Source: Sipunculus nudus (taxonomy: Eukaryota > Annelida > Sipuncula > Golfingiida > Sipunculidae). From it: 64,000 bases of DNA. A model generated the notes under the pieces. That model did not search any database. It had not been told where the DNA came from and saw nothing but the letters and a program-made list of their open reading frames with translations. Position 1 is the first letter of the stretch; every line of letters starts with the position of its first letter. Both the position numbers and the translations under genes were made by a program. The stretch is taken from positions 54,782,079 to 54,846,078 of the forward strand of contig CM049309.1 in the NCBI GenBank assembly GCA_026874595.1. The letters are read 5' to 3'. This document shows positions 8,639 through 62,914 of the stretch, in pieces.

Positions 8639-10357
8639 GTATCCGCCAAAACAGAGTTTTGCGGATACTATGTTTTCAGCTGCACGCCGCCGCCGCCGCC
8701 GCGTAGGTTTCCGGAGAACTCCTCCATAACCGCTGGGCGGAATTTTACGAAACCCGGGATTATGTTCGGGTCACATGTGAACTGCTGCGCCCCGATTTTG
8801 TTTTGACCTATGACCTTTCCTCTGCGCTCTGCGTCCGTTTGTGCGTCTGTTTCCTCACATAAACCCACATATCTCGGGAACTGTTTGACGGATCAGGAAA
8901 ATTTTTTTGCACAAATGTAGCCCTTGGAGAGCTTTATAACATACACAAAAAATGGTGGCACCACCTGCAACCATGTTTGCACAGTGTCCATCTGTTCGTC
9001 TGCCTTGGGTTAAAATCACTCATATCTCTGCAGTGACTTGACTAATTCACTTGAAATTTGGCATGCGTATACATCCTGGATAGCTTTTCTGATTTTGTGA
9101 CAGGTGGCGCCACCTACATTCACGTTTACACTGCAGACATCCAAGCTCATATCTCAGGAACCGTTTGACCGATTAGGAAAATTTTTTTGCACAAATGTAG
9201 CCCTTGAAGAGCTTTATAATATACACAAAAAATGGTGGCGCCACCTGCAACCATGTTTGCACAGTGTCCATCTGTTTGTCTGCCTTGGGTTAAAATCACT
9301 CATATCTCTGCAGTGACTTGACTAATTCACCTGAAATTTGGCATGCGTATACATCCTGGATAGCTTTTCTGATTTTGTGACAGGTGGCGCCACCTACATT
9401 CACGTTTACGCTGCAGACATCTAAGCTCATATCTCGGGAACCGTTTGACCGATCAGGAAAATTTTTTTGCACAAATGTAGCCCTTGGAGAGCTTTATAAC
9501 ATTCACAAAAAATGGTGGCGCCACCTGCAACCATGTTTGCACAGTGTCCATCTGTTTGTCTGCCTTGGGTTAAAATCACTCATATCTCTGCAGTGACTTG
9601 ACTATTTCACCTGAAATTCGGCATGCGTATACATCCTGGATAGCTTTTCTGATTTTATGACAGGTGGCGCCACCTACATTCACGTTTACGCTGCAGACAT
9701 CCAAGCTCATATCTCGGGAACCATTTGACCGATGAGGAAAATTTTTTTGCACAAATGTAGCCCTTGGAGAGCTTTATAACATACGCAAAACTGGTGGCGC
9801 CACCTACAGCCATTTTTGCACAGCTCCTGTCTGTTTGTCTGCCATGGGATAAAATCACTCATTTCTCGCAGTGGTTTGACATATCGGGCTATAATTTTGC
9901 TGGTTTATACATCCCCGACAGCTCTCTTGATTTTATTACAGGTGGAGCCACCTGCATTCTAGTGTATGCAGCAGACATCCAAGCTCATATCTTGGGAACC
10001 GTTTTGCATGTGTATAGATCTCACATAGCTCTTTATCATACGCAAAACTGGTGCCGTCACCTGCAACCGTTTTTGCCCAGCCTCCATCTGATTGTCTGCC
10101 ACGAGCTAAAATCACTCATATACATGTAGTGGTTTGACTTATCTGCCTTAAATTTTGCATATGTATACAACTGGGACGGCTTTCTGGATTTTGTGGTGGG
10201 GGGGCAACCTTCATACACAATTTGGCTGCAGACATCCATGCTAATATGCAACACTTCACTCTATTTCCCCTTGCCACTTAATCCATGCCTCACTTCACCC
10301 GTTCCACTCTGATTTAGGCGGATACACGTAGTCGCTTGTCGACTACCCGTATTCTAG
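8639..10357 (+). repeat. H2 element, complete copy (Helentron-like, non-autonomous)
   Basis: The 5' end is GTATCCGCC, within a fold-back at 8641-8666 (arms ATCCGCCAAAAC and GTTTTGCGGAT, one-base bulge). The 3' end has GGCGGATAC, the inverse of the 5' terminus. It is followed by the hairpin GTAGTCG-cttgt-CGACTAC and TATTCTAG ending at 10357. The core is a tandem array of 280 bp units (clear between about 8950 and 9800) with the palindrome GGTGGCGCCACC twice per unit. There is no substantial ORF. The fold-back, subterminal inverted repeat and 3' hairpin plus CTAG match the Helentron/HINE plan known from animals. Confidence 0.8.
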
Positions 10358-10464
10358 TTAAAATTTGAACAGAGATTCTGCAAAAGAGGAGTTTCATGTG
10401 TAAGGAAGTACAGAATTATTGTTTGCTTTCCTTTGGCTCAGCAGGGTTTGCTTTCCTTTAGCTC
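10358..10464 (+). other. Tropomodulin intron spacer
   Basis: Short spacer between repeats with nothing recognised. Confidence 0.5.
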
Positions 10465-11000
10465 AGCAGGGTGTCCATCCATTAACATGGCACGTTTTGA
10501 AACCTTTATGACTATGAATATTAAATTTGACATACCGTTAGCCATCCCTAAGTTCTCCAATAAAACCTGAAACTAGGTCAGTGCGACAACATTCCTTTGA
10601 GAAATAAAGGAAAAACCTCTGTTTTCCAGAAAAAACCTGTTGTTGCACATTAAAACTGTGTATTATGGAAACCTCTGTTTTTAATCTATTCATATTTGAA
10701 ATAACCATTCCTGCATATATTTCCTATGTACATGCCAGAAAATAGATAAAATTTGCATAAATATTTGAAGTTATTGACCCAAACATAATGCACTTTGTCA
10801 AAAAACTGGAAATATATTTCTTCAATTAACATGGTAATTTGTTATGCTAGAGATCTAATTTTAATCATATATCTATATTCAACTGAGTTTTAATTGTTTA
10901 CCAGAAATTAGATCAAAATTTTGTAATTTTTTAGCTCAGCTGACTCAAAGTTAACTGAGCTATAGGAATAGCGGTACCCTCTAGAATAATTAAACATTTG
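10465..11000 (+). repeat. H3-family fragments
   Basis: From 10465 to about 10920 the sequence matches the body of H3 copies (GGCACGTTTTGAAACC, AGGAAAAACCTC, TATGTACATGCCAGAAA). A fresh H3 5' end then appears at 10933-10961, with fold-back arms AGCTCAGCTGACT and AGTTAACTGAGCT. No 3' end is seen, so these are truncated pieces. Confidence 0.65.
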
Positions 11001-11346
11001 ATACAAAACCTCCAGAATCCTATAATTAAGCACCCCATCGAGGAGCTTATTTTTTTTTAAGGTGAGTCTGCTTCCGTGTCCACTTCCTCACTTTTAAAAT
11101 GCTTCTGTCTCCTACATGCTTGCATCTACCAATCTACCATCTAATTTAGTGGAAGGCATTGAATTATGACTCTAAAAAACTGATTAACATTTGGTTGACC
11201 TTGACCCATATTTGTGCAATTTATTAGCACTTTAGCATTTTCCCCAATGACTAAAAATCATCAAAAAGTGGTTTTAGGTGTATCTTAGGCATACTCTCAG
11301 ATATTCTTGGATATCAGTATTGCATTATACTAATTCCACAGTTTTT

Positions 11347-13064
11347 ATGCCCCCGCCACAAAGTGGCCGGGGCATATAGTTTTACCCATGTCCGTCATTC
11401 CGTCCTTCCGTCATTCCGAAATCAAACAGTTGTACAGACTTTTTTTCGCAATGCCTGCAGATATTGGCCTGATTTTTGGTGTGTGGGTAGATATAGACCA
11501 GTTACAGATCGAGTTCGCGTTTCGTCCTGGTTGACCTACTTTTGACTGTTTTACGGCTCCTAAACTTAGAAAATTTCATGAAAAATAGAAATTTCATGAC
11601 AAATACACATGTATGGACTTTTTTTCGCAATGCCTGCAGATATTGGCCTGATTTTTGGTGTGTGGGCTGATATAGACCAGTTACAGATCGAGTTTGCGTT
11701 TCGTACCGGTTGACCTGCTTTTGACTGTTTTACGGCTCCTAAACTTAGAAAATTTCATGAAAAATAGAAATTTCATGACAAATACACATGTATGGACTTT
11801 TTTTCGCAATGCCTGCAGATATTGGCCTGATTTTTGGTGTGTGGGCTGATATAGACCAGTTACAGATCGAGTTCGCGTTTCGTCCTGGTTGACCTACTTT
11901 TGACTGTTTTACGGCTCCTAAACTTAGAAAATTTCATGAAAAATAGAAATTTCATGACAAATACACATGTACGGACTTTTTTTCGCAATGCCTGCAGATA
12001 TTGGCCTGATTTTTGGTGTGTAGGCAGATAATGTCCAGTTACAGATAGAGTTTGCGTTTCCTCCCAGTTGACCTACTTTTGACTGTTTTACGGCTCCTAA
12101 ACTTAGAAAATTTCATGAAAAATAGAAATTTTCATGACAAATACACATGTACAGACTTTTTTTTCGCAATGCCTACAGATATTGGCTTGATTTTTGGTGT
12201 GTTGGCAGATATAGACCAGTTACAGATCAAGTTTGCGTTTCGTACCTGTTGACCTTCTTTTGACTGTTTTACGGCTCCTGAACATAGAAAATTGCATGAA
12301 AAATATGAAATTTCATGACAAATACACATGTACAGACTTTTTATCGCAATGCCTGCAGATATTGGCCTGATTTTTGGTGTTTTGGCAGACATTGACCAGT
12401 TACAGATTGAGTTCGCGTTTTGTCCCAGTTGACCTACTTTTGACCATTTGACGGTGCTCTAACATAGAAAATTTCATGAAAAAGTGCACATGTATGGACT
12501 TTTTTTCGCAGTGCCTGCAGATACGGGCCTGATTTTTGGTGTGTAGGCAGATATTGACCAGTTACAGATCGAGTTCTTGTTTTGTCCCAGTTGACCTACT
12601 TTTGACCATTTGACTGCTCCTGAACATAGAAAGTTTCATGAAAAATAGAAATTTTCATAACAAATGCATATGTACTGACTTTTTTTCCTCAATGCCTGCA
12701 GATACCACCCTGATTTTTTATGTGTTGGCAGATAATGACAGTTACAGATCGAGTTCGCGTTTTGTCCCGGTTGACCTACTTTTCATTGTTTTATGGCTCC
12801 TAAACATAGAAAATTTCATGAAAGACAGAAATTTTTATGGAAAATGCACATGTATGAACTTATTTTCACAATGCCTGCATATACTGGCATGATTTTTGGT
12901 GTGTTGCTTGATAATGACCCGTTACAGATTGAGTTTGCATTTTGCCCTTGTTGACCTACTTTTGACCATACGACACCTCCTGAACTGAAAAAATTTTTCG
13001 AAATTTTACAAATATTTCTAATTTGCCCCATGCGGGGGCATTCGTGTCGTTCCGACACATCTAG
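11347..13064 (+). repeat. H1 element, complete copy with about 180 bp tandem core
   Basis: The 5' fold-back at 11347-11375 has arms ATGCCCCCGCCAC and GTGGCCGGGGCAT with an AAA loop and one C-C mismatch. GCGGGGGCAT near 13032-13041 is the inverse of the 5' terminus. The 3' hairpin GTGTCG-TTC-CGACAC (13044-13058) is followed by ATCTAG ending at 13064. Between lie about nine 179-180 bp units (phrases ATGCCTGCAGATATTGG, CCAGTTACAGATCGAG, GTTGACCTACTTTTGAC, ATTTCATGAAAAA). The 3' units are more diverged than the 5' ones. It resembles the CvA/pearl-like elements of bivalves and Helentron-associated elements. Confidence 0.82.
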
Positions 13065-13610
13065 TCTTAAATAAGGTCACCCTGATGCAATTTAGCCACA
13101 AAACTAGGTCAGACAGCATGCTTATATTAATGCTATTGGCTCCTCTATTATTCATCAGAATTGGACCAAACCATGCATTATTCACCAGTTTGTGTAATAG
13201 TACCCATTTTGCTTATGACCTTACATATGTGCTCAAGGTCAAGTCACAGTAGACTTTGGGCCTCATTTGGCTATGCAAAAAAAAATTACTATTTTTTCCA
13301 TATTGAATCATTAAATGGTTATAGGCTGCAAGTTTCATTTATTACACATAAAACTTTTACAAATACATGTTTGTGATAATGAGAGGCTCCTGCATCTTTC
13401 AGGTAGTCCATAATAGTCCACAGTCAACACAACCACTAGGATTTTATACAAATATTCGCAGAATCAATATCGGCAGAGTGCCATGACCCACAGGTAACTT
13501 GTAATTGAAAAGACGTACACTTGTAAGACACACAGTTGATTGTTTTATAAGGGACTTTTAGGTGTGAGTAACTGTTGATATTGTTTATGATGTTGATGTT
13601 GTCATAACAG
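13065..13610 (+). other. Tropomodulin intron, 3' part
   Basis: AT-rich intron ending in the acceptor ATAACAG. No repeat or RNA gene is recognised. Confidence 0.7.
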
Positions 13611-16250: not shown

Positions 16251-16509
16251 TTTTAGCTCAGCTGACTTTCAATCATGTTGATCTATAACAATGGGTGTCT
16301 CTCTGTCATCCAGCTGCCTGGCCAGCTGTCTCTCCATCTGTTAGCAGGGCACATCAGTCCTTGTCCATGGCCTTGCTCGGAATACAAACAGTTCATGTGA
16401 AATCTCTGTGCAGACCCAAAATTAGATCATCATGACATATATTCAAAGAACTATATAGCAGAAACATGATTCTGAGCACTTTAAAGTCAGACTCTATTAA
16501 ATATTAATT
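16251..16509 (+). repeat. H3 5'-end fragment, decayed
   Basis: TTTTAGCTCAGCTGACT at 16251 is the H3 5' terminus. It is followed by a CTCTGTCATCC/CTCCATCTG stretch in the place of the GTCCGTC run, then loses similarity. The right arm of the fold-back is not preserved. Confidence 0.55.
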
Positions 16510-17380
16510 GTATCTCCAGACAGAGTCGGGATACAATGGTTTTACCATGGTCCCGCCGCCGCCGCAGAAAAATCTTGTGAGCGGGATAACTAAAAAAATA
16601 TTTCACTGACCTTTTTCAAACTTTACATTTGTATAGATATAGGTAAGAGGACAAAGTCTATTTAAAATGGGGTCATGACCTTTGCTAAGAGAGTGACCTT
16701 GACCTTGAATAGGTCCATTTTAGCTGAAAATAACACTAATTCTTAAATATCTCAAGAAAGCTTGCCTGGACTGGACAAAAGATCTTGGATAGCCTTGTGA
16801 TATACTGGAAACTGGTGGCGCCACCTATTATCCTTTTCTTGTTTTTACGCCTTTTAATACTCCCATAATTGCCACTTGACAGTACTACGAGCATTATAAG
16901 TCAAGAACTAATGGACCAGATTTCTTTCATATTATGAACATGTAGAGAGATGTGTTATGGGATGAGGTCTATTTAAATTTGGGTCGAGACCTTTATCATG
17001 AGAGTGGCCTCGACCTTTAATATTTTCATATTTGGTAAAAATCACACACTTCTTATGATATCTCCAGTGTTGATAGCCATATGGATTTCAAACGTGACTT
17101 ATGTATGGCCCACCAATAAAGTAAGAACCCTATAGGTTCTAGGGTCATGAGTCAAAGGTCAAGGTCACTGGACTCCATCATTAAAGATATTGTGGATGCA
17201 TTTTAAGCCAAACTTTTCATCCCAGAGTCTTCAACATATAGCTCACATGCCAATAGTGGCTGATTCATATCAATTTTGGGGTCACAAGGTCAAAGGTAGA
17301 GGCCTTAAGAGCTATCTGTCAAAAAATTATTTTCCGGATATTTTCAGCTTTTTTATGTATGGATTTCAAACTTGATTTAT

Positions 17381-17413
<33 letters not shown>

Positions 17414-20240
17414 AACAAGGTCCCTATTGATTTTTAGGTCATAAGGTCTAGGTCACAGGACACATCTTTGAAAAGATTGTGGATGCATTTTCAGCCGATT
17501 TTTTCATTTCAGACCTTTTATCTTGAACATATAGTTCACCTGCCAATAGAGGAAGACCCCTATCCATTTTTAGGTCACAAGGTCAAAGGTGAAGGCCACA
17601 GGAGCCATCTGTCCAAAAAATAATTTCCAGCTTGGAATGATATAGGGGCATCAAACTTGACTTATATATGGCCCATCAATAAAACAAGATTCCTATTGAT
17701 TTTGAGGTTATTAAGTCAAAGGTCAAGGTCACAGGACAAACATCTTAGGAAAGATTGTGGAGGCATTTTCAGCCAAACTTTTCATCTAAGACCTTTTTTC
17801 TTGCACATATAGTTCACCTGCCAATAGAGGAAGACCTCTATCCATTTTTAGGTCAAAGGTGAAGGTCACAGGAGCCATCTGTGCAAAAATTCATTTCTTG
17901 ATGATAACTCTAGCTTTGAATGATATATGGGTTTCAAACTTGACTAATATGGCCTATCAATAAAACAAGATTCCTATTGATTTTGAGGTCATGAGGTTAA
18001 AGGTCAAGGTCACAGGACAAACATCTTTGAAAAGATTGTGGATGCATTTTCAGCCAAACTTTTCATCTCAGTCCTTTTATCTTGCACATATAGTTCACCT
18101 GCCAATAAAGGAAGACCTCTTTCCATTTTTAGGTCACTAGGTCAAAGGTGAAGGTCACAGAAGCCATCTGTCCAAAAATGCATTTCCTTATGATGACTCC
18201 AGTTGTATTGAAATATGGGTTTCAAACTTGACTCATATATGTCCATCCATCTTGGAAAGTTTTCTCCTAAACCATACAGGTGTCGCCACCTACCTTCTCG
18301 ATTTTGTAGAATAATTGAATTCCCTTTTCTGAGGAGTGATTTGCCTGAAAATGTGCATATCCATAGATCTTGGACTCCTACATTTTGTACTCAAGACTGG
18401 TGGCACCATTTGCTATCGTTTTGCCGTGGTGTCCATCTGTACATGTGCTTTTGATGAAAATGGTTCGTATCTCTGGAGTGGTTAAAGGTATTGGTCTTAA
18501 ATTGGAAAATTAAAAAAAAAAAGACAGGTGGCGACACCTTCTTTCCTGTTTCTGTAAAATAAATTCATGCTCTTTTCTCAAGAGAGATTCATTTTATTGA
18601 CCCCCATTTTTGGTGAAAAATATTGTTTCTGAAGTTGATAGATGAAAGAAACCATAGTCGCTTGCTTAAATGTCAGTATATGCTGATATCTATCTTTTAT
18701 TTAAAATGAATACACCAACTCAATGATTAATGCTTAACGAGAAATTGATACTTATATATTTTAATATGGAACTTCAGGGTTGATTAGAGACTGACAGATG
18801 ACAAGTATCTGACTCTTTAACTCTGCACTCATAGATCTGATGATAAAAGCTTATGTAGGGAACATATGTCAGACCTGTTTCAGGGGCAACATGAACAGTT
18901 TAATCTCTAAGGTCAAATCTGGCCAATATTAGGACTATTATGACCCCCTTATATTTGGAAGTACTGAAAATTATTTCCTTATAATTTGACATGCAAGTTC
19001 TTTCTGGCATGTTCTCTGATGAGTTCAACCTGGCGACTTTGATCGTCAAGGTTAAATCTGCAGAAATTTTAAATTATAGTGAAATACATACTATGAGCAT
19101 TATAAGTAAAAAACTAATGGACAGATTGGGCTGAAATTGTGCATGTCCATTGATTTTGGATACCTCGATCTTGTATTCAGGACTTGTGGCACCATCTGCA
19201 ATCGTTTTTGTGTGGCGTCCATCCGTATGTTTGCTTTCAATGAAAATATATCATATCTTAGGAGTGGTTCAATGTATTGAAAATGTCTGAAATTTGGGAT
19301 TTGTATCCGTCTTGGAGAGTTTTCTCGTAAAGCAGACAAGTGGCGCCACCTACCATACTGCTTTCATAGTATAGATTAAAGCCCTTTTCTAAGGAATATT
19401 TTGCCATTTTGGCCTGAAATGGTGCTTGTTCATAGACCTTGGATACTTCAATCTCATATTCAAGACTGGTGTCGCCGTCTGAAATCGTTTTTGTGTGGCG
19501 TCCATCCGTACATTTGCTTTAGCTGAAAGTTGTTCATATCTCAGGAGTCGATCAATGTGTTTGCCTGAAATTTGGCATGTACATCCATCTTGGACAGTTT
19601 TCTCGTCAACTAGTGGCGCCACCAATCTTACTGTTTTCATAGTATGAATTAATCCCATTTTCTCAAGAGTAATTCTCCGTATTGGCCTGAAATTGTGCAT
19701 GTCCATAGATCTTGGATATCTCCATCTTGTACTTATGACTGGTAGCGCAATCTGCAATCGTTTTCGTGTGGGGTCCATCCAAACATTTACTTTGGGTGAA
19801 AAATGCGCATATCTCAGGAGTGGTTCAAGGTATTTGTCTGAAATTTGCCATGTCCATCCACCTTGGAACGTTTTCTCGTAAATCAGACAGCTGGCGCCAC
19901 CTACCTTCCCGTTTTCGTAGAATAAATTAATGCCTTTTTCTCAGGAGTGATTGGCCGTATCGGCCTGAAATTGCGCATGTCTTTAGATATTGCATACTCC
20001 CATCTCGTGTACAAGACTGGTGGCGCCACATGAAATTTGGCATGGCCATCCATCTTGGACAGTTTTCTCGTAAACCAGACAGGTTACCTCCCTCTTTTCG
20101 TTGAATAAATTAATGCCCATATCTCTGAGTTTTAGTGAACTTAATTAAGGAGTGGTGTGACATACCACTCAATCCATGCCTCACTTCACTCATACCACTC
20201 TGATTTCGGCGGATACCCGTTGTCGTTACCTATATCCTAG
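16510..20240 (+). repeat. Large chimeric element: H4-type 5' end, H2-type 3' end
   Basis: The 5' end (GTATCTCCAGACA with right arm GGGATACAA) and first 600 bp are H4-like, with a CCGCCGCCGCCG run and the palindrome GGTGGCGCCACC near 16816. The middle (about 17190-18200) is a tandem array of 280-290 bp units. From about 18270 to 20100 there are units with GTTTTCTCGTAAA and GGCGCCACCTACC, spaced about 270-280 bp. The 3' end carries the H2 phrase AATCCATGCCTCACTTCAC, then GGCGGATAC and TATATCCTAG ending at 20240; its terminal hairpin is decayed. Only short open frames occur, so it is non-autonomous. The 18500-19080 part may be a separate insertion. Confidence 0.65.
17190..18200 (+). repeat. Tandem array, about 280-290 bp units
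   Basis: The phrase ATGCATTTTCAGCC (with variants) occurs near 17190, 17482, 17758 and 18041. Each time it is followed by an ATAGTTCACCTGCCAATA phrase, GGTCAAAGGTGAAGG, and the next unit. A (TA)n microsatellite lies at about 17378-17413. Confidence 0.7.
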
Positions 20241-23013: not shown

Positions 23014-23039
23014 GGCTGCGATGGAATTTCTCACTGTGA

Positions 23040-26925: not shown

Positions 26926-26959
<34 letters not shown>

Positions 26960-27578: not shown

Positions 27579-27584
<6 letters not shown>

Positions 27585-31567: not shown

Positions 31568-31995
31568 TTGAGTTACCATATGCATGGTGCATTGCATTAA
31601 TTAGGCATGGTAGTTGATACCACTGATTTGATTTTCAGGGCCATTTAGCAATAATTCTAGTGTATTTCACATGGCATATGATATATTTCATAGATGGGGA
31701 AACTAGGAAAGGTAATGTTGTTAATGTTAATTATGGGCTACAGCTTCATTAATTTTTGTCTGTCAGCGTCTGATAGCATCTTGAGTTACCATATGCATGG
31801 TGCATTGCATTAATAAGGCATGGTAGTTGATACCACTGATTTGATTTTCAGGGCCATTTAGCAATAATTCTGGTGTATTTTACATGGCATATGATATATT
31901 TCATAGATGGGGAAACTAGGAAAGGTAATGTTGTTAATGTTAATTAAGGGCTACAGCTTCATTAATTTTTGTCTGTCAGCGTCTGATAGCATCTT
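31568..31995 (+). repeat. Two-copy 213 bp tandem duplication
   Basis: The unit starting TTGAGTTACCATATGCATGG at 31568 repeats at 31781 with only a few differences. The copies stay in register to GATAGCATCTT. Very high identity points to a recent duplication. Confidence 0.92.
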
Positions 31996-32276
31996 ATACT
32001 TGGCAGTAGTTTCCCATTCATGGTGAATCCTGCAAAATTGTTTATCTGAACGAAAACTATGTCCTCCAAGCTTTAAGATAAATGTCTTCTTTTGGCCAGG
32101 ACACCAGCTTTGGCTTGATTACAGGTAAAATAACCTACCTTTGATTCTCCCATTTTCTCATTATCTTCCAGCTTTTTTAACAGTGGGTTGCACTGTTGTT
32201 CCATTTCTTTCCAGTGCAGCAAAGAAATTTATTAGTTTCTTAAAGTCCCTTCTCTCAAAGGACAAACATAATCATT

Positions 32277-33858
32277 GTATCCGCCAAAACAGAGTTTTGC
32301 GGATACTATGTTTTCAGCTACACGCTGCCGCCACGGCGTAGGTGTCCGGAGAACTCCTCCATAACCGCTGGGCGGAATTTTACGAAACCCGGGTTTATGT
32401 TTGGGTCACATGTGAACTGCTGCGCCTCGATTTTGTTTTGACCTCTGACCTTTCCTCTGCGCTCTGCGTCCGTTTGTGCGTCTGTTTCCACACGTAAACC
32501 CACATATCTCGGGAACCGTTTGACCGATCAGGAAAATTTTTTGCACAAATGTAGCCCTTGGAGAGCTTTATAACATACACAAAAAATGGTGGCGCCACCT
32601 GCAACCATGTTTGCACAGTGTCCATCTGTTCGTCTGCCTTGGGTTAAAATCACTCATATCTCTGCAGTGACTTGACTAATTCACCTGAAATTCGGCATGC
32701 GTAAACATCCTGGATAGCTTTTCTGATTTTATGACAGGTGGCGCCACCTACATTCACATTTACGCTGCAGACATCCAAGCTCATATCTCAGGAACCGTTT
32801 GACCGATCAGGAAAATTGTTTTGCACAAATGTAGCCCTTGGAGAGCTTTATAACATATACAAAAAATGGTGGCGCCACCTGCAACCATGTTTGCACAGTG
32901 TCCACCTGTTCGTCTGCCTTGGGTTAAAATCACTCATATCTCTGCAGTGACTTGACTAATTCACCTGAAATTCGGCATGCGTATACATCCTGGATAGCTT
33001 TTCTGATTTTATGACAGGTGGCGCCACCTACATTTACGTTTACGCTGCAGACATCCAAGCTCATATATTGGGAACCGTTTGACCGATCAGGAAAATTTTT
33101 TTGCACAAATGTAGCCCTTGGAGAGTTTATAAAATACACAAAAAATGGTGGCGCCACCTGCAACCATGTTTGCACAGTGTCCTTCCAAGCTCATATCTCA
33201 GGAACCGTTTGACCGATTGGGCCAAAATTTTGCATGTGTATAGATCTCACATAGCTCTTTATCATACGCAAAACTGGTGGCTCCACCTGCAGCCATTTTT
33301 GCACAGCTCCTGTCTGTTTGTCAGCCATTGGATAAAATCACTCATATCTCGGCAGTGGTTTGACATATCTGCCTAAAATTTTGCAGGTTTATACATCCCC
33401 GACAGCTCTCTTGATTTTATGACAGGTGGCGCCACCTGCATTCTAGTTTATGCAGCAGACATCCAAGCTCATATCTTGGGAACCGTTTGACTGATTGGGC
33501 CAAAGTTTTGCATGTGTATAGTTCTCACATAGCTCTTTATCATACGCAAAACTGGTGGCGTCACCTGCAACCATTTTTCCTCAACGTCCATCTGTTTGTC
33601 TGCCACGGGCTAAAATCACTCATATACATGTAGTGGTTTGACTTATCTGCCTTAAATTTTGCATATGTATACAACTTGGACAGCTTTCTGGATTTTGTGG
33701 TAGGGGGGGGCAACCTACTTACACCATTTGGCTGCAGACATCCATGCTAATATGCAACACTCTATTTCCCCTTGCCACTCAATCCATGCCTCACTTCACT
33801 CGTTCCACTCTGATTAAGGCGGATACACGTAGTTGCTTGTCGACTACCCGTATTCTAG
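32277..33858 (+). repeat. H2 element, second complete copy
   Basis: It has the same termini as the copy at 8639: 5' GTATCCGCC with the CAAAAC/GTTTTG fold-back, and 3' GGCGGATAC, a GTCG/CGAC hairpin and TATTCTAG. Palindromes GGTGGCGCCACC begin at 32588, 32737, 32868, 33017 and 33147, alternating 149 and 130-131 bp apart. It ends only 15 bp before the next element's fold-back. Confidence 0.82.
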
Positions 33859-36800: not shown

Positions 36801-37036
36801 ATATATCACAATTTTCAACCCCTCCTAAATAAATAAAATATAAACCACTATATTTGACTCTATTAATCCATCAGTCAGGTAATTTCATTTACTCACATAT
36901 TACATTACATTCCTTTATAATAGCCCAACATGTCTGTGATATTCATAAGCTTTATCGACTCGATATAGTATCACAGTGGAGAAACATTTATAGTCCAATC
37001 ACGATCAGCTGAGCGCCGTGACCCATAGGTCCCTTG
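33870..37036 (+). repeat. H3 element, long copy
   Basis: The 5' fold-back at 33874-33902 has arms AGCTCAGCTGACT and AGTCATCTGAGCT, followed by CTATAG and a GTCCGTCCGTC run. The body contains two diverged copies of a roughly 600 bp unit (AGATGTCCCAAAAATCTCC; then near 34680 AGATGTCCCCAAAATCTCC). The 3' end has TCAGCTGAGC (37005-37014, the inverse of the 5' arm), the short hairpin GACC-CATA-GGTC and CCTTG. It has no coding capacity. A 71 bp tandem duplication (ATTGCAACTTTTGCAACAA) lies near 35945-36040. Confidence 0.75.
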
Positions 37037-38568: not shown

Positions 38569-39381
38569 CTAAATGTCTCCGAACGACACGAATGCCCCCG
38601 TCTGGGGCAAATTAGAAACATTTGTAAAATTTTGAAAAATCTTTTAAGTTCAGGAGGTGTCGTATGGTCAAAAGTAGGTCAACAAGGGCAAAATTGAACC
38701 TCGATCTGTAACGGGTCATTATCAAGCAACACACCAAAAATCATGCCAGTATATGCAGGCATTGTGAAAAAAAATTCCATACATGTGCGTTTTCCATAAA
38801 AATTTCTGTCTTTCATGAAATTTTCTATGTTTAGGAGCCGTAAAACAATCAAAAGTAGGTTAACCGGGACGAAACACGAACCTGATCTGTAACTGTCATT
38901 ATCTGCCCACACATAAAAAATCAGGGTGGTATCTGCAGGCATTGAGGAAAAAAAGTCAGTACATATGCATTTGTTATGAAAATTTCTATTTTTCATGAAA
39001 CTTTCAATGTTCAGGAGCAGTGAAATGGTCAAAAGTAGGTCAACTGGGACAAAACAAGAACTCGATCTGTAACTGGTCATTATCTGCCTACACACCAAAA
39101 ATCATGCCCGTATCTGCAGGCACTGCTAAAAAAAGTCCATACATGTGCAATTTTTTATGAAATTTTCTATGTTAGAGCACCGTCAAATGGTCAAAAGTAG
39201 GTCAACTGGGACAAAACATGAACTCGATCTGTAACTGGTCATTATCTGCCCACACACCAAAAATCAGGCCAATATCTGCAGGCATTGCGAAAAAAAGTCC
39301 GTACAACTGTTTGATTTCGGAAGGACGGAATGACGGACATGGGTAAAACTATATGCCCCGGCCACTTTGTGGCGGGGGCAT
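38569..39381 (-). repeat. H1 element, short copy inside the hAT
   Basis: On the minus strand the 5' fold-back starts at 39381 (ATGCCCCCGCCAC and its partner). Four to five 180 bp-type units follow. The element ends with GGGGGCAT, a GTGTCG-type hairpin and TTAG at 38569. The hairpin right arm is partly decayed and the CTAG is changed to TTAG. It must have inserted after, or travelled with, the hAT. Confidence 0.78.
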
Positions 39382-39477
39382 AAAAATACATATTACAGGT
39401 TCTCTTAACGCTATATTGATAATAAAGAAGCAAGATTTGACCAGACTTAGAAATTAGTGACAGATTCTAGTGGCAAT

Positions 39478-48441: not shown

Positions 48442-51400
48442 TTTTAGCTCAGCTGACTATAAGTCATCTGAGCTATAGTCATGGTCCATTGTCCGTCGTC
48501 TGTCCGTCCGTCTGTCCGATGTCCGTCCGTAAGACTGGCACATTTCGACACCATTGGACCTACGAATCTGAAATTTGCCATACAGTTAGATGTCCCAAAC
48601 ATCTCCTACCATGCCGAAAATTGGGTCAATAGGACTTTGTTCCTTCAAGATATTAAGGAAAAACCTCAATTTTTTATTAGAAATCTATTTTCACACATCA
48701 GGACTGCCTTATATCAAAACCACTCATCTGGTTTTCTTCATATTTACCATAAATATTCCTCTATATAGTTCCTATGTACATGCCAGAAATTAAGTCAGTA
48801 TTATTTAATTTAAAAAAGTTATGAGCCCAAACATAATGGACTTTGTAAAAAAATCAGGAAAGATATTTTGTCACTTAAGACCAAAAGTGTTAAAGGTAGG
48901 GACTTTTTTTCAGTAATACAACTTTAATTGATCAAAATTTAATTGTATACCAAAAATTAGATCAAAATCTGTTAAATTTTTTTAAATATTGGCAAAAATA
49001 TAAAATTGATACCTTAAATTTTGCCCAAGTTTGACCATGGCACGTTTTTAGCTCAGCTGACTATAAGTCATCTGAGCTATAGCCGTGGTCCTTTGTCTGT
49101 GGTCCGGCCGTCCGTCTGTCCGTCCGTCCATCCGTAGATGTGGCACGTTTTGAAACCGTAAGACCTAGGAATCCGAAAATTCGGCATAATGTTAGATGTC
49201 CCCAAGATCTCCTACCAAGCCGAAAACTGGGTCTTTGCGACTTCGTTCCTTCAAGAAATTAAGGAAAAACCTCAATTTTTTATTAAAAACCTATTTTCAC
49301 ACTTTAGGAATGCATAATATCAAAACCACTCATCTGTTTTTCCTCATATTTACCATAAATATTCCTCTATATAGTTCCTATGTACATGCCAGAAATTATG
49401 TCTGTGTTATTTAATTTAAAAAAGTTATGGGCCCAAACATAATGCATTTTGTAAAAAATCAGGAAAGATATTTGATCACTTAACACAAAACATGTTAAAG
49501 CTATGGACTTTTTTTCCAGTAATAACTTTATTAATCAAAATTAAATTGTATACCCAAAATTAGATCAAAATCTTTTAAATTTTTTAAAATATTAACAAAA
49601 ATAAAAAATTGGTACCTTAAATTTTGCCCAACTTTGACCATGGCACGTTTTTTTCCTGTAAGTACTGTGGATTTAATTTTCACAGCATGTTTTTGTTAGC
49701 ATTTTGCCTGTTAACACCAAAAATTTTAAACCTGTTGATCAAAAACTAGATTTTATTCAAGTTTTCAAGCACCATGTAACATATTGTTTACATCAAGCTA
49801 GTGTCATGCAGTTTGCAAGAGCTCAGCTCCCCAGCATCAGCTCTCAGTTCCTAAAATTTGGCATACAATTAGATGTCTCAAAAATCCCCTACCATGCCAA
49901 GAATTTGGTCAATAGGACTTAATACCTTCGAGATATTAACGAAAAACTTCATTTTTCCATTAAAAACCCATTGTTACACTTCAAGACTGCCTAATATCAA
50001 AACCACTGATCTGACTTTAATCATATATAATATACATATTTTTCTATACATTCTGTATGCAAATGCCAGAAATGATGTCAATGTTGCCTAATTGTTTTAA
50101 GTTATGGGCCAAAACATAATGCACTTTGTAAAAAATCAAGAAATACATTTACTCCCTTAACAAGAGGATTGCTGAAGCTAGAGATTTTTTGTCAGGAATG
50201 TAACATTATTTAATCAAGATTCAATTGAATACCAAAAATTAGTTCTGAATTTTTCAAATTTTATAAGTTATTAGTCTAAATATAAAATTAGTACCTTAAG
50301 GACACATAAGCACACATAAGGATTTCAGCTTTTTAGTGTAGAAAGCTGAAAGAAATTGGCCAAAAATTATAGCTTTTATTAATGTTTTTATGAGACCATG
50401 TCAGACCTTGGCTCGCTCTAACCCCTCTTGAGTCACCTGTATGTTTACCTTGTTGAACTTTCAGCAAATTATGCATGCTTGAGGCGAGGCATAAACTAGG
50501 GCAGCCAGGCAGCTTATTACCAGCCACAGTTGATCCAGGTGTCCAACCCAACTCATCTAGTAGTTTTAACCAACAACATAACAATAAACAATAAATTAAT
50601 AAATTTTTATTGATTTTTAATAACAAATTAAAGAAAAATAGAAAAGGAATTTGTTAGTTGATGATAACAGGAAATTAACTTGAGTTACTGATGATATAAG
50701 AATCTTGTATCGATGGATAGAATGTCACATATTCCAAATAACACCATGCAGTCACCTATGGTATTTTTCAGTTCAATTTTAATGATAAAAAAGTAAATCA
50801 TATTAATTATTACTAATCATTAGGGATCATATGAAGGAAATTAATGATAGACAAAGATGCAGTTGATAATATTAATCTAGATTCCTACTGTGTCTAGTGT
50901 GTACATTGATGTGAATTTAGTCCAAAATGATTATATTACATTTAATTTTTAATATTAATAAAAGCCATAAAACCAGGTACTTATGATCATTATTTAAATG
51001 TGTGAATTTTGTATATTCTGGATTCTCAACATCATTGTTTGGTGAAAACTGAATAAATACCAGACATGGTGCGAATACTTTGCAACTGTATGTAAATACA
51101 AATATGAATATGTACTCCATGATAAAATTTCTTTCATAAGAATGGGAATTCAGGTAAAAATGAAAGTATATGAATATCAGTGCAAATACTTTCAAAATGT
51201 ATTCATGAATGCATTCATGATTATATTCTTTAATATTATTTTAATAATCACTTCAGTTATATTTCATTTTAAAAAATCATACAATTCTCTTTTTATTTTT
51301 AATAAAAATTATATTTGGGACAATATTTGTATTTTTTTTAATAAATAGTTAAACTCTTATATTATATGTTCTGCTTATAAGTTATATGGCCAAGTCAAAA

Positions 51401-51617
51401 TCTGTGTGACAATAGCACTCCATTTGTTAATAAAATAAATGAAATCAATCCTCTTCCCTGTCTCCAAAGGTACTATCAAAATCATACATAAGCTAAACAA
51501 CAACAACTCATAATACAGCTTATTTTTTTACCACGTAAAACCAGCATGTGCCTCATTTCTAAATCATATTTTTTAATCATATATAACAGCTGAGCGCCGT
51601 GACCCATAGGTCCCTTG
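48442..51617 (+). repeat. H3 element with two 5' ends
   Basis: Fold-backs with AGCTCAGCTGACT arms start at 48446 and again at 49050, about 604 bp apart, each followed by CTATAG and GTCCGTC-type runs. A third body unit without a fold-back follows near 49855. The unique tail ends with CAGCTGAGC, GACC-CATA-GGTC and CCTTG at 51617. It lies in NUP153 intron 5. Confidence 0.75.
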
Positions 51618-51623
51618 TTTTTT
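49655..51623 (+). repeat. H3 3' module, first copy of a 1969 bp tandem duplication
   Basis: It starts CCTGTAAGTACTGTGG and includes the H3 tail and 3' terminus. The whole segment recurs from 51624, interrupted there by an H1 insertion. Shared phrases include GAGCTCAGCTCCC, CTACCATGCCAAGAATTT, CCAGCCACAGTTGATCCAGG, and ACAATAGCACTCCATTTGTT. Confidence 0.85.
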
Positions 51624-53068
51624 CCTGTAAGTACTGTGGATTTAATTTTCACAGCATGTTTTTGTTAGCATCTTGTCTGTTAACACAAAAAATTTGAAAC
51701 CAGTTGATCAAAAACTGTAGATTTTATTCAAGTTTTCAAGCACCATGTCACATATTATTTACATCAAGCTAGTGTTATGCAGTTTGCTAGAGCTCAGCTC
51801 CCTAGCTTCAGCTCTAAGTTCCTTAAATTTAGCATACAGTTAGATGTCTCCAAAATCCCCTACCATGCCAAGAATTTTATCACTAGGACTTAATTCCTTT
51901 GAAATATTAATGAAAAACTTCATTTTTCCATTAAAAACCCATTGTCACACTGTAAGACTGCCTAATATCAAAACCACTGATCTCACTTTGATCATATATA
52001 ATATACATATTTTTCTGTACATTCGCTATGCACATGCCAGAAATGATGTCAGTATTGCCTAATTGTTTTAAGTTATGGGCCCAAATATAATGCACTTTTT
52101 AAAAAATCAAGAAATATATTTACTCCCTTAACAAGAGGATTGCTGAAGCTAGAGATTTTTTGTCAGGGATGTAACATTATTTAATCAAGATTCAATTGAA
52201 TACCAAAAATTAGTTCTGAATTTTTCAAATTTTATAAGTTATTAGTATAAATATAAAATTAGTACCTTAAATTTTGCCCAACTTTGACCATGGCACGTTT
52301 GTTTCCTGAGAGCACTGTTGATATAATTTTCATATCATACACACATAAGAATTTCATCTTTGTAGTTCAGAAAGCTGAAAGAAATTGGCCAAATATTGTA
52401 GCTTTTATTAATGTTTATATGAGACCATGTCAGACCCAGGCTTAATCCAGCCCCTCTCTAGTCACATGTATGTTGACCTTGTTGACCTTTCATCAGATTA
52501 TGCATGCTTGAGCGAAGCATACACTGGGGCAGCCAGGCAGCTTATGCCCAGCCACAGTTGATCCAGGTGTCCAACCCAACTCATCTAGTAGTTGTTTTGA
52601 AAAATAACATAACAATAAACAATATATTAATAATTTTGTATTGTTTTTTTATAACAAATTAAAGAAAAAGTAATAGAAAATGAATTTGTTAGTTGATGAG
52701 TAACAGAAAATTAACTTGCAGTTACTGATGATGTAAGAATCTTGTATGGATGGATAGAATGTCAATGTCAATGTTATTCCAAATAACACCATGCAGTCAC
52801 CTATGGTATTTTTCAGTGAAATTTTAATGATAAAAAAATAAATCATTAATTATTACTAATCATTAGGGATCATATGAAGGAAATTAATGATAGACAAAGA
52901 TGCAGTTGATAATATTAATCTAGATTCCTATTGTGTCTAGTGTGTAGATTGATGTGAAAGTAGTCCAAAGTGAATATATTACATTTATTTTTTATGCCCC
53001 CGCCACCAAGTGGCTGGGGCATATAGTTTTACCCATGTCCGTCATTCCGTCCTTCCGTAATCAAACAG

Positions 53069-54202
53069 TGTCACCCCTAACTTAACGTGAAAACTTTACA
53101 ACGGATATATCCTATAAAACCATACGATGGGTTTACGCTCGCCACTTGATTTCACTCATCAAGAAATTAGATCCCGGTCATTACAGGTGACATTTCCAGG
53201 TTCTTTTAAGGACGTGTATTAAAATACCAGACAATCATACACCCAGATCAATAGAAACTATGAGACATCAGGTTAAATTCACAAATATAATTCAAGACAA
53301 TACTTACAGAGACACAAATGTGAGTGTGTGCGTTGATGTGTCAATACGACAGCAGGATATTTACTGAGTCCATGGTTTGTATAAAAACAATAAAATCCAG
53401 TTCCTTCAGAGATCTCTGGTTACTGCCTTGTGTAGAATCTAGCGTATGGTTAGTACCATATAGTCTTTCTGAGTTTAGCGTTCTTCAAATGATCTTACTT
53501 GACAGCGACCCGGGTAGGTTTACGTTCACGTGAATGGTAATAGGTCTCTTTGTTTACATATGAGCTTAGAGTCCTTGACCTTAATTCGTGTAGTAATAGA
53601 TTCACGGCTTACAGCGTTTATATATCTAGGTCAAGCTAAACTAGGCCAGCGGGTGACGCGTGCGCACTTACTTTACCACCAATACGAAGCTTTGTCGGCA
53701 GCATGGCTGTGATCTTGTGAGTTGGGCCCTTGCCCCATGTATAAGCTTGCTTCTGTGCCGTTCCTGGCGGTTTTAAGCGTCTCTAGGTTCTCTCTGCCGT
53801 GCGTGCGTGTTGCCTCTCCAAGCTTCAGGACCCAACTGAACCAACGTTCAGCGTCTCTTCTTGAAGTCTGACGTCACAATCGCCTGTTCACTGTGTACGG
53901 CAATCCAGTTCTCTGATTGGCTTATTTCTCAAGTGTCCCATATAAGGATATATGTGACCTAGTTTGACTGTTAGCGTCACCATGGCGACCCACATACCAA
54001 ATGTAATAATACACACGATGCGTGACACGGATAAATCAGCTGATAGCCGATGGGATTACATACAAGAATACACAATAGATATATACAATCAAGACCTGTC
54101 AACGCTTTAGGATGACGCTTCACGTCAATATCAATAGAGAACAGACTTCGTTAAACTATGATACAAAACACCGTACATATTGTCACCTATTGTCTGGTGA
54201 CA
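53069..54202. mobile_element. Solo LTR (1134 bp) with 5 bp target duplication
   Basis: It begins TGTCACCCC and ends GGTGACA, with AACAG directly on both sides (53064-53068 and 54203-54207). Removing it restores the H1 5' phrase AATCAAACAGTTGTACGGAC found intact at about 11401-11440. A TATAAGG at 53941 could be an LTR TATA box on the + strand. No internal retrotransposon genes are present, so recombination to a solo LTR is the simplest reading. The family is not identified. Confidence 0.82.
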
Positions 54203-54835
54203 AACAGTTGTACGGACTTTTTTTCGCAATGCCTGCAGATATCGGCCTGATTTTTGGTGTGTGGGCAGATATAGACCAGTTACAGATTGAGTTCGCGCTT
54301 CGTCCCGGTTGACCTACTTTTTACCGTTTTACGGCTCCTAAACCTAGAAAATTTTATGAAAAAAAATAGAAATATTCATGACAGATACACATGTACGGAC
54401 TTTTTTTCGCAATGCCTGCAGATATTGGCCTGATTTTTGGTGTGTGAGCAGATATAGACCAGTTACAGATCGAGTTCGCGTTTCGTCCTGGTTGCCCCTA
54501 TTTTGACCGTTTTACGGCTCCTGAACATAGAAAATTTCATGAAAAATATGAAATTTCATGACAAATACACATGTACGGACTTTTTTTCCCAGTGCCTGCA
54601 GATGTTGGCCTGATTTTTGGTGTGTGGACAGATATAGACCAGTTACAGATCGAGTTCACGTTTTGTCCCGGTTGACCTACTTTTGACCGTTTTACGGCTC
54701 CTAAACTTCGAAAATTTCATGAAAAATAGAAATATTCATGACAGATACACATGTACGGACTTTTTTTCGCAATGCCTGCAGATATTGGCCTAATTTTTGG
54801 TGTGTGGGCAGATATAGACCAGTTACAGATCGAGT

Positions 54836-56137
54836 TCGCGTTTCGTCCTGGTTGACCTACTTTTGACAGTTTTACGGCTCCTGAACATAGAAAATTTCAT
54901 GAAAAATATGAAATTTCATGACAAATACACATGTACGGATTTTTTTAGCAGTGCCTGCAGATATTGGCCTGATTTTTGGTGTGGACAGATATAGACCAGT
55001 TACAGATCGAGTTCGCGTTTCGTCCCGGTTGACCTACTTTTGACCGTTTTACGGCTCCTAAACTTAGAAATTTTCATGAAAAATAGAAATATTCATGACA
55101 GATACACATGTACGGAATTTTTTTCGCAATGCCTGCAGATATTGGCCAGATTTTTTGTGTGTAGGCAGATATAGACCAGTTACAGATCGAGCTCACGTTT
55201 CGTCCCAGTTGACCTACTTTTGACTGTTTTACGGCTCCTAAACTTAGAAAATTTCATGAAAAATAGAAATATTCATGACAGATACACATGTACAGACTTT
55301 TTTTTGCAATGCCTGCAGATATTGGCCTAATTTTTGGTGTGTGGGCAGATATAGACCAGTTACAGATCAAGTTCACGTTTTGTCCCGGTTGACCTACTTT
55401 TGACCGTTTTACGGCTCCTGAACATAGAAAATTTCATGAAAAATATGAAATTTCATGACAAATACACATGTACGGACTTTTTTTTTTCGCGTTTCGTCCT
55501 GGTTGACCTACTTTTGACAGTTTTACGGCTCCTGAACATAGAAAATTTCATGAAAAATATGAAATTTCATGACAAATACACATGTACGGATTTTTTTAGC
55601 AGTGCCTGCAGATATTTGCCTGATTTTTGGTGTGGACAGATATAGACCAGTTACAGATCGAGTTCGCGTTTCGTCCCGGTTGACCTACTTTTGACCGTTT
55701 TACGGCTCCTAAACTTAGAAATTTTCATGAAAAATAGAAATATTCATGACAGATACACATGTACGGAATTTTTTTCGCAATGCCTGCAGATATTGGCCAG
55801 ATTTTTTGTGTGTAGGCAGATATAGACCAGTTACAGATCGAGTTCACATTTCGTCCCAGTTGACCTACTTTTGACTGTTTTACGGCTCCTAAACTTAGAA
55901 AATTTCATGAAAAATAGAAATATTCATGACAGATACACATGTACAGACTTTTTTTTGCAATGCCTGCAGATATTGGCCTAATTTTTGGTGTGTGGGCAGA
56001 TATAGACCAGTTACAGATCAAGTTCACGTTTTGTCCCGGTTGACCTACTTTTGACCGTTTTACGGCTCCTGAACATAGAAAATTTCATGAAAAATATGAA
56101 ATTTCATGACAAATACACATGTACGGACTTTTTTTCG
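54836..56137 (+). repeat. 651 bp higher-order duplication in the H1 core
   Basis: The block 54836-55486 is repeated at 55487-56137 with only scattered differences. The seam near 55480-55490 joins TTTTTTTT of one unit to TCGCGTTTCGTCC of another, as expected from unequal exchange between out-of-register units. Each block spans about 3.6 units. Confidence 0.88.
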
Positions 56138-57503
56138 CAATGCCTGCAGATATTGGCCTGATGTTTGGTGTGTCGGCAGATATTGACCAGTTACAGATGG
56201 AGTTCGCATTTCGTCCCGGTTGACCTACTTTCGACTGTTTTACGGCTCCTGAACATAGAAAATTTCATGTAAAATATGAAATTTCATGACAAATACACAT
56301 GTAAGGACTTTTTTTCGCAATGCCTGCAGATATTGGCCTGATGTTTGGTGTGTCGGCAGATATTGACCAGTTACAGATGGAGTTCGCATTTCGTCCCGGT
56401 TGACCTACTTTTGACTGTTTTACGGCTCCTGAACATAGAAAATGTAAAATATATATTTTCATGACAAATACACTTGTACAGACTTTTCTTCACAATATCT
56501 GCAGATATTGGCCTGATTTTTGGTGTGTAGGCAGATAATGACCAGTTACAGATCGAGTTCTTGTTTTGTCTCAGTTGACCTACTTTTGACCATTTGACTG
56601 CTCCTGAACATAGAAAGTTTCATGAAAAATATAAATTTTCATAACAAATGCATATGTACTGACTTTTTTTCCTCAATGCCTGCATATACTGGCATGATTT
56701 TTAGTGTGTTGCTCGATAATGACCCGTTACAGATCGAGTTTGCATTTTGCCCTTGTTGACCTACTTTTGACCATACGACACCTCCTGAACATAAAAAATT
56801 TTCCAAATTTTACAAATGTTTCTAATTTGCCCAAGGCGGGGGCATTCATGTCGTTCCGACACATCTAGTTTTAATATAAATAAAAGCCATAAAACCAGGT
56901 ACTTATGATCATTATTTAAATTTGTGAATTTTGTATATTCTGGATTCTCAACATCTTTGTTTGGCTAAAACTGAATAAATACTAGACATGGTGCGAATGC
57001 TTTGCAAATGTATTAGAATACAAATATGAATATGTACTGCATTAAAAAATTTTATTGCATAAGAATGGGAATTCAGGTAAAAATGAAAGTATTTGAATAC
57101 CAGTGCAGATACTTTCAAAATGTATTTATGAATGCATTCATGAATATATTCTATAATATTATTCCAAAAATATTTCAATTTTTTTAATAAAAATTATATT
57201 GGGACAATATTTGTTATTAAATTTTAATAAATAGTTAAACTCTTTTATAATATGTGCTGCTTATAAGTTATATGGCCAAGTCAAAATCTGTGTGACAATA
57301 GCACTCCATTTGTTAATAAAATAAATGAAATCAATCCTCTTCCCTGTCTCCAAAGATACTATCAAAATCATACATAAACTAAACACCAACAACTCATAAT
57401 AAAGCTTATATTTATTACCACACAAAACAAGCATGTGCCTCTTCCCCAAATAATATTTTTTATCATATATAACAGCTGAGCGCCGTGACCCATGGGTCCC
57501 TTG

Positions 57504-57831: not shown

Positions 57832-57951
57832 AAGGGCGTATCTATATTTGGAGACATGGGAGGTCAGTCGTCCTTTTACGCTGGTAAAACTATATTTGGA
57901 GGAGCTGCCTCTCAGCAACTGCACAGAAGAGCAGCCTCATCACCATATCAG
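57832..57951 (+). CDS. NUP153: NUP153, exon 6
   Basis: This is 40 codons in phase 0, with acceptor GTTTGTAG and donor GTAGAG. It reads SIFGDMGGQSSFYAGKTIFG then GAASQQLHRRAASSPYQ. Vertebrate NUP153 has GDSPFYPGKTTYGGAAAAVRQ...NTPYQ here. The F-Y-x-G-K-T-x-x-G-G-A-A and PYQ motifs make the assignment secure. Confidence 0.95.
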
Positions 57952-58665: not shown

Positions 58666-58791
58666 AAGGGGACCCCTACCCTGAAGCAAGTCAGAGCAAA
58701 GCCTGTGGCAGTACAGCAAGGATCTGTGTCCACATGTTCAACATCACAGAGAATTTTGCAGGCCCTGGAGAAGATGTCCACCCCACTCACA
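58666..58791 (+). CDS. NUP153: NUP153, exon 7
   Basis: This is 42 codons in phase 0, with donor GTGAGT. It includes LKQVRAKPVAVQ and STCSTSQRILQALEKMSTPL, equivalent to the vertebrate RRQMKAKQLSAQ and SSTARRILQSLEKMSSPL. It is the last recognisable NUP153 exon in the window. The zinc-finger cluster and FG-rich C-terminus must lie downstream. Confidence 0.96.
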
Positions 58792-60997: not shown

Positions 60998-62914
60998 TTT
61001 TAGCTCAGCTGACTATAAGTCATCTGAGCTATAGTCGTGGTCCATTGTCCGTCGTCTGTCCGTCCGACCGTCCGTAGATGTGGCACGTTTTGAAACCGTA
61101 AGACCTAGGAATCCAAAATTCAGCATAATGTTAGATGTCCCCAAGATCTCCTACCAAGCCTAAAACTGGGTCTTTGCGACTTCATTCCTTTGAGAAATTA
61201 AGGAAAAACATCAATTTTTTATTAAAATCCTATTTTCACACTTCAGGACTGCCTAATATCAAAACCACTCATCTGTTTTTCCTAATATTTACCATAAATT
61301 TTCCTCTATATAGTTCCTATGTACATGCAAGAAATTAAGTCTGTAAAGTATAAATTCTTTAAGTTATGGGCCCAAACATAATGGACTTTGTAAAAAATCA
61401 GGAAAAATAATAACTCACTTAACATGAAAAATTTTGAAACTAGAGTCTATTTTCTCAAGCATATAACTATGTTTAATTAAGATTCAATTGTTTACCGAAA
61501 ATTAGATCTGAATTTTGTAAATTTTTTAAGTTATTAGCTTAAAAAAAAATCAGTACCTTAAATTTTGCCCAACTTTGACCATGGCACGTTTTTTTCCTGT
61601 AAGCACCATTGATTTAATTTTCACAGCATGTAAACATAAATATTTAGTTTGTCTAAATCTGAAATTTGAAAATAAAAGCTTGAAAATTAAGCTAGTTATT
61701 GAATTTTTTTTCTGTAGTCACTTGCTTTGATTACAGATGCAGGGTCCCACTCCAGGTCACTGGAAGTCAGCTATGCCAGGGTTTCTGATTTGTTACAGTC
61801 ACTAGGGGAGGTCCCCTGCTGTGACAGGTGTACAGTTATTCTCATATCACCACCCCAATCACCCCCCCCCCCCCCCGGCAAACCCAACCCACCAAGTGTT
61901 ATGCACTAATTGTTGTTATTGTTTTCACTGTATCTCCTTAATTGTAATGCTGTTTCCACTCCGATATGCAAAAACTTTCCTTGAAAAAATAATTCAAGGT
62001 GTAATCAAGAAGATGCAATGTTGTGTAATGTAGCATTTTTAAAGAAATCAATTTTCTTTTAAATGATTTCAACAAATATAATTGAACCCATCAGTATGCT
62101 TAAATTATTATAAAATATGAAGCACATTATGGATAAATAAAGACACAATTAAAAATTGTGAAATCTAAATCAAGTATTATTTTTAGATATTTATTGTTTT
62201 GCAGATTTAAAAGATATATTTTTGCGGTAAAAAATAAATAAACATTTGTATGCATGATGTGGTGTTATCTGACAAGATTGAGATTTATGATGATGTAGTT
62301 GAGAATTATGAAACAACTTTTATATTCAGATATATATGTTAAATTGGAAATGTATAGAAATATAAACTTAAATTAGAAAATAATTGATGTGATAAAAAAA
62401 AATGAGGATTAAATACAAACATTTGTTCATTATTTTCCTGCCTCAGCAGAATTTGAGATCAGGCTTTGTTTTCCCCGTTTTATTTTGTTTATTAGCTCTA
62501 TTTCAACTGTATACATTTCATTAAAAAAATACATATATATTTAATAATATATATTATACCAAAAAATAGATCCAATTGAACAAATGTGTAAACTACTGAA
62601 ATGTCAACAGTTAATCGAAAAACCAACTAATGATCATGGTAATAGTACAGATCATTTGTTCACAAACTGTTCACATGACAGATCATTTGTTCACAAACTG
62701 CTCACATGCTTTAGTTTTAACATTAGGAAACACATGGTCAGGTCACAAAATATTTTTTGCAACAATTTCTTGCTCATCAATACAAACCAATCATATAAAC
62801 CAACCATGGCCTTTATTACCTCTTCCTCTTACACTTTATCTCCATTTGATATTATTTTAGATTTTTACCTTCAAGGTTAATGTCAGCTGAGCACAGTGAC
62901 CCATAGGTCCCTTG
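60998..62914 (+). repeat. H3 element, compact complete copy
   Basis: The fold-back starts at 61002 (AGCTCAGCTGACT / AGTCATCTGAGCT). It is followed by a GTCCGTCGTCTGTCCGTCC run, one body unit and an AT-rich tail. The end has TCAGCTGAGC (62883-62892), GACC-CATA-GGTC and CCTTG at 62914. A 31 bp tandem duplication (ACAGATCATTTGTTCACAAA) lies at 62647-62708, and a C-run near 61862. Confidence 0.8.

Follow-up and report, generated by a model that had tools for sequence, protein, structure and literature searches.

Introduction

The described systems closest to the elements reported here are the HINEs, or non-autonomous Helentrons, whose end plan, TT target, lack of a target duplication and variable number of T residues are described among the available portions of six reports (PMC4067079, PMC7492417, PMC7992393, PMC11136912, PMC10294476, PMC9741609). 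In the Pacific oyster, HINEs with satellite-like cores are reported to be widespread, and the accessible text of that work leaves the source of their enzyme open, with none of 10 autonomous Repbase oyster elements relatable to them (PMC7492417); a further report, in the sections available, detected no autonomous sequences in the oyster (PMC7992393). Helentrons bearing a herpes-tegument-type (VTD) domain have been reported in molluscs among others, according to the available part of their description (PMC9741609). Among the titles listed by our literature searches, whose scope leaves out most subscription journals, none reports end-matched partners of HINEs in a mollusc. Here we compare with these systems a stretch of 64,000 bases from Sipunculus nudus (C4:54782079-54846078 in a genome of 1.43 Gb), referred to as the window, and its coding relatives elsewhere in the genome.

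Results

Families and end layout

An earlier note on this DNA had described four repeat families, H1 to H4, built on one Helentron-like plan, and for H1, H2 and H3 the shared layout is borne out by end matches where it had placed them, by the scan for copies and by folding. All three open with TT and then a fold-back repeat, which corrects the start given previously, and the 3' end presents the inverse of the fold-back, then a hairpin and finally a terminal CTAG (H1 and H2) or CTTG (H3). The H1, H2 and H3 ends GTATCCGCC, ATGCCCCCGCC and AGCTCAGCTGA have six, four and six matches in the window against 0.12, 0.00 and 0.03 expected, and subterminal inverted repeats are present as GTATCCGCC, ATGCCCCCGCC and AGCTCAGCTG, each with its inverse near the 3' end. 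With one copy folded per family, none of 200 shuffles was as good as the 5' fold-backs of H1, H2 and H3 or the 3' hairpins of H1 and H2; the H3 3' hairpin is short, and 15 of 200 shuffles equalled it. Two descriptions needed revision. The division of families by CTAG versus TTG fails, as Rep-bearing loci with H3-type ends show CTTG and CTAG alike, and the tandem core said to be frequent is long in H1 (unit of about 280 bases), H2 (about 180 bases) and H4, with H3 copies having short tandem stretches only (48490-48530 and 62647-62708).

H4 had been given no coordinates, and the sole candidate found in the window has a 3' module resembling that of H1 (61 bases at 88.5%), a weak 5' fold-back (2 of 200 shuffles as good) and no 3' hairpin that folds (80 of 200 shuffles as good). 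An independent H4 family is thus not supported; judged by these sequence features the candidate seems to be a diverged relative of H1, which would leave three families.

Table 1. Elements mapped in the window, complete copies being those for which a scan recovered both ends
Feature	Position	Strand	Description
H1 copy	8637..10357	+	TT + GTATCCGCC fold-back, 280-base tandem core, inverse GGCGGATAC, hairpin, CTAG; host ...TAA^TT...
H1 copy	32275..33858	+	layout as 8637..10357; host ...TCA^TT...
Truncated H1 5' part	6106..6519	+	3' limit about 6507-6519
H4 candidate, seemingly diverged H1	16508..20240	+	two tandem arrays; starts TTGTATC, ends CCTAG before TT
H2 copy	11345..13064	+	TT + ATGCCCCCGCC fold-back, 179/180-base tandem core, inverse, hairpin, CTAG
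H2 copy	38569..39383	-	short core; 3' end TTAG
H2 copy	52992..56868	+	nested in outer H3 (48444..57503); empty site is paralogous stretch at about 50947-50951
H3 copy	33872..37036	+	TT + AGCTCAGCTGA fold-back ... CAGCTGAGC, short hairpin, CTTG
Outer H3 copy	48444..57503	+	split by H3 (49048-51617) and H2 (52992-56868); net 2,613 bases
H3 copy	49048..51617	+	nested in outer H3; empty sites are T-runs 34467-34473, 49648-49654 and 61589-61595
H3 copy	61000..62914	+	both ends found
Tentative old H3 copy	10931..13501	+	hosts H2 at 11345-13064; 3' end 8/33 mismatches

The truncated H1 part sits within an H4-like copy (about 5787-6642), at ...TTA^, as read by eye from a comparison of its host with 16800-16840. 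Elsewhere in the genome, 19 of 27 paired H3 copies, which were picked by position, are 2,500-2,650 bases long. The end scan also met an H3-like 5' end at 2953-2989 (8/37 mismatches), for which it showed no partner 3' end, and a separate palindromic repeat (TATTTTCGCGATATTCGCGAATATG...) at 63083-63428. At 31568-31995 lies a 213-base unit in two copies that are 98% alike.

All three families are abundant. Searches with exact ends of 15-16 bases, in which G was disallowed as the outermost flank base so that the counts are lower bounds, gave at least 3,320 5' and 6,354 3' ends for H1, at least 2,884 and 2,896 for H2, and at least 15,068 and 7,174 for H3, with 0-2 matches for reversed-pattern controls. 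When up to one mismatch in 23 bases was allowed, the H1 3' end had 10,319 matches in the genome.

Insertion sites and the absence of target duplication

Flanking bases were counted in the first 100 among the matches listed for each end, all on C1. Of the 100 H1 5' flanks, counted outward from the fold-back, 98 have T at -5, 95 have A at -3, 97 have T at -2 and all have T at -1. For the bases after CTAG 83 rows were used, with T first in every row and T second in 81; the 17 rows dropped from 100 were 12 with one flank (one of these with a single change), three lying within 300 bases of one another, and two sharing another flank. The H2 5' flanks (n = 96, four of 100 rows being internal reverse hairpins) have T at positions -5 to -1 in 92, 94, 85, 95 and 92 rows, and T, T follows CTAG in 98 and 92 of 100. 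H3 flanks resemble those of H2 in a chosen subset, since the H3 base counts and lengths come from rows that are likely pairs by position (48 of 100 at the 5' side and 29 of 100 at the 3' side). The target of H1 is TNA^TT and that of H2 and H3 is mostly TTT^TT, with insertion directly 5' of TT. Several H3 host copies read TGT or ATT rather than TTT, so that the T-rich bases before TT are partly explained.

Ends were paired with the nearest end on the same strand, such that a few pairs may join different copies, giving 57 H2, 32 H1 and 27 H3 pairs, or 116 in total with 115 distinct 3' ends (one H1 3' end serves two pairs, leaving 31 distinct 3' ends among 32). In these 116 pairs, direct repeats across the element are no longer than in shuffled pairs, and only T-runs at chance level were seen. 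This bears out the earlier statement that no obvious target duplication surrounds the copies, a duplication being the finding that the earlier note had itself set against its reading. Seven pairs with a dinucleotide other than TT at the 3' side keep TT at the 5' side, and three with a non-TT 5' side have TT at the 3' side; the two sides agree in none of these 10 pairs.

Empty sites were searched for in the window and the loci, with no more than 4 of the 29 anchor bases allowed to differ. Paralogous empty sites were found for 24 of the 116 pairs; a control that joined the flanks of different copies gave 3. The net gain is 2 bases in 15, 3 in three, 1 in three, -1 in two and 6 in one, so that nine of 24 deviate from a 2-base gain, including two of the three H1 sites (one H1 site gains 2; the two with -1 lie in a TTG repeat). 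Within the window, the empty site ATTTAATTTTTAATAT corresponds to the filled ATTTATTTTTT<H2>TTTTAATAT and CACGTTTTTTTCCTG to CACGTTTTT<H3>TTTTTTCCTG, the filled flanks summing in both cases to 4 bases above the empty site. Other sites read TTATTAAC when empty and TTATT<H2>TTAAC when filled, and TAATTGTT when empty and TAATT<H1>TTGTT when filled. A usual gain of 2 bases with TT on both sides is also what would be expected of cut-and-paste, MITE-like elements that duplicate a 2-base TT target. We regard this explanation as very improbable, as none of the 10 non-TT pairs agrees between its sides, though later mutation could explain some of them, the elements do not end in terminal inverted repeats, and Rep and helicase are found in their coding relatives. 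The empty site TTTTCTTT speaks against it as well, for its filled counterpart is TTTTT<H2>TCTTT, and the extra TT therefore belongs to the element. On the basis of the empty sites, the disagreement of sides and the pair shuffles, a TT target duplication is rejected; given the empty sites and the 0/10 agreement, the element begins with TT and inserts directly 5' of a TT.

Coding partners of H2 and H3

The earlier note had proposed a search of the genome for Rep/helicase proteins flanked by the same termini, and this yielded partners for H2 and H3 and none for H1. The Helitron_like_N profile gave 143 hits among the matches listed, and 45 Rep loci were examined (the 3' sides of 43 and 8 kb around two more). 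Nineteen have H3-type ends (at most 8/31 mismatches), two have H2 ends and 24 have neither; two of the 19 (L027 and L028) resemble one duplicated stretch. The 8-kb surroundings of two Rep matches on C3 and C5 (L015/L016) are 99.4% identical, and no element end was seen inside them.

The H2 partners, C5:20300942-20313327 and C3:41766495-41778499, are about 12 kb each. Both have the 5' end of H2 and its 180-base array, and their 3' end is identical to that of H2 over 33 bases. Their main stretches are 93-99% alike (about 2.9 kb of the C3 copy lie outside the comparison) and their flanks have no match. In the C5 copy, split frames hold DUF6570, Helitron_like_N (Rep), PIF1 and Exo_endo_phos.

The H3 partners are elements of 14,885 and 16,128 bases on C17 and C5. 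Their main stretches are 94-98% alike, the flanks on both sides do not match, and the alignment breaks at TTTTAGCTCAGC and CACTTG. In the C17 copy a single open frame of 2,342 codons holds Herpes_teg_N, DUF6570, Helitron_like_N and PIF1, together with a weak Exo_endo_phos match below cut-off; the copy on C5 is broken into several frames. H3 has only about 70 bases at the 5' end and 45 bases at the 3' end in common with these two complete elements, and the closer Rep loci L028 and L054 share about 200 further bases with H3 at 76-78%. Both H3-type Helentrons (L033/L017; L034/L019/L018) have a tandem array in which a second H3 5' end occurs, about 0.7 and 1.1 kb inward of the first. At L047 and L054, two H3-type 3' ends come in succession, spaced by about 590 and 180 bases; one ends in CTAG and the other in CTTG, as though a duplicated or overrun stop point lay there.

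The Rep regions of the H3 and H2 types are 29-32% identical, and they are 34% and 41-42% identical, respectively, to that of a third group, F1. The alignment of a pair of F1 loci, 99.4% alike over 7.1 kb, breaks just past a different 3' hairpin, and neither CTAG nor CTTG was found at that break. The H3-type protein starts with a herpes-tegument-type (VTD) domain, and the F1 group carries OTU (L013:2203-9228 minus; L004:1-3612 minus).

These data bear on the suggestion, made in the earlier note, that one replicase serves many ends, meaning that a single Helentron enzyme tolerant of differing termini moves all families. The families do have one architecture, H3-type ends recur at several Rep loci of differing sequence, and an H1 partner was not found, all of which would accord with such an enzyme. 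As an account of all families we nevertheless consider it improbable, because H2 and H3 each have an end-matched coding element with Rep regions only about 30% identical, H1 differs in target from H2 and H3, and the third Rep group breaks past yet another 3' hairpin. For H2 and H3 a shared replicase is rejected on the strength of these separate elements; for H1 and H4, which have no replicase among the loci found, sharing is possible.

H1 and its missing partner

No H1 end lies beside Rep at any of the 45 loci, of which 24 are without an H-type end; in hardly any of those 24 was the true end traced. Because of this lack of a partner and because its target is TNA^TT rather than TTT^TT, H1 probably has, or had, an enzyme of its own. 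The two H3-type Helentrons (L017/L013, C17; L018/L014, C5) each contain a diverged H1 at TTA^TT in matching surroundings, so it got in ahead of their split and was carried along.

The target also raises the question of whether H1 and H4 should be placed in another rolling-circle group, either canonical Helitrons or something like a proto-Helentron, with A/T insertion and CTAG. An A precedes TT in 95 of 100 H1 copies, T comes first after CTAG in every one of the 83 rows used, H1 empty sites read TAA^TTGTT and TAA^TTAGC (3 and 5 of the 29 anchor bases mismatched), and proto-Helentron-Pi of Phytophthora, in the available part of its description, has a 5' TT, a 3' CTAG and A/T insertion (PMC4067079). 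Set against this, H1 has the HINE layout of 5' fold-back, inverse near the 3' end and tandem core, a Rep with H1 ends was not found at the 45 loci, and the net gain at the other two H1 empty sites is -1 instead of 2. Membership of such a group is in our estimation possible yet doubtful. A canonical Helitron (5' TC, 3' CTRR, A/T insertion) does not describe these elements, as H1, H2 and H3 all have 5' TT; compared with it, H1 has CTAG and A^T, and H2 and H3 insert mostly at T^T. We would advance equally tentatively that H1 and H4 are a rolling-circle lineage with the Helentron end plan, a TNA^TT target between that of Helitrons (A^T) and that of Helentrons (T^T), and a replicase that differs from both matched ones and went unrecognized at the 45 Rep loci.

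Discussion

Our findings make it very likely that H1, H2 and H3 are HINEs, with H2 and H3 end-matched to separate Helentrons and H1, together with H4, representing a third end set. The designation of these repeats as Helentron-type and non-autonomous is supported by their ends, by their insertion sites, by the absence of a target duplication and by coding relatives that share those ends. In the mechanism that we propose, HINEs would keep both ends recognized by an enzyme and lose the genes, the Helentron enzyme consisting of a Rep nickase, a PIF1-type helicase and an endonuclease. The enzyme would cut at the 5' TT and fold-back, one strand would be peeled off and copied until copying reaches the 3' hairpin with CTAG or CTTG and halts, and the copy would be joined directly 5' of a TT without duplicating the target. 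H2 may then be its own 12 kb Helentron shortened by internal loss, with the 180-base array kept, H3 may stem from a separate Helentron lineage, of which the intact copy has a VTD-type domain, and retain little beyond its ends, and H1, with H4, would constitute the third set of ends. Movement in trans, a rolling-circle intermediate, and activity whether present or past are what we infer from these sequence relationships.

End-matched elements for two families, with sharply different Reps, make it possible to test which ends a given enzyme moves, and the differing target sites offer an independent readout of enzyme-end matching.

The comparisons that follow refer to the available portions of the cited reports. 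As in HINE/DINE-1 elements and Helentrons (Thomas et al. 2014, PMC4067079), the elements here have a 3' palindrome, a TT target, no duplication and a variable T number; they are also like mite HINEs, with subTIRs of 12-15 bases situated 2-4 bases from the 5' end, and their partners, like those Helentrons, carry Rep/helicase and endonuclease (PMC4067079). They differ from HINE/DINE-1 in that three end sets occur in one window and H1 prefers TNA^TT (PMC4067079). Proto-Helentron-Pi is like H1 in both termini and in insertion; H1 differs from it in its subTIR architecture, and its coding copy was not found at the 45 Rep loci (PMC4067079). The VTD-bearing Helentrons have the same combination of Rep, helicase, AP-type endonuclease and herpes-tegument-like deubiquitinase domain, and are described without HINEs, unlike the situation here (PMC9741609). 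The oyster Cg_HINEs (Vojvoda Zeljko et al. 2020, PMC7492417) are alike in having a subTIR and, in the left flank, a repeat complementary to it, a satellite-like core, a 3' palindrome, a TT target and several parallel families; for them no autonomous element could be related, whereas H2 and H3 have partners. The plan is thus already known from DINE-1 and the oyster Cg_HINEs, and what is added here are the end-matched partners and the differing targets.
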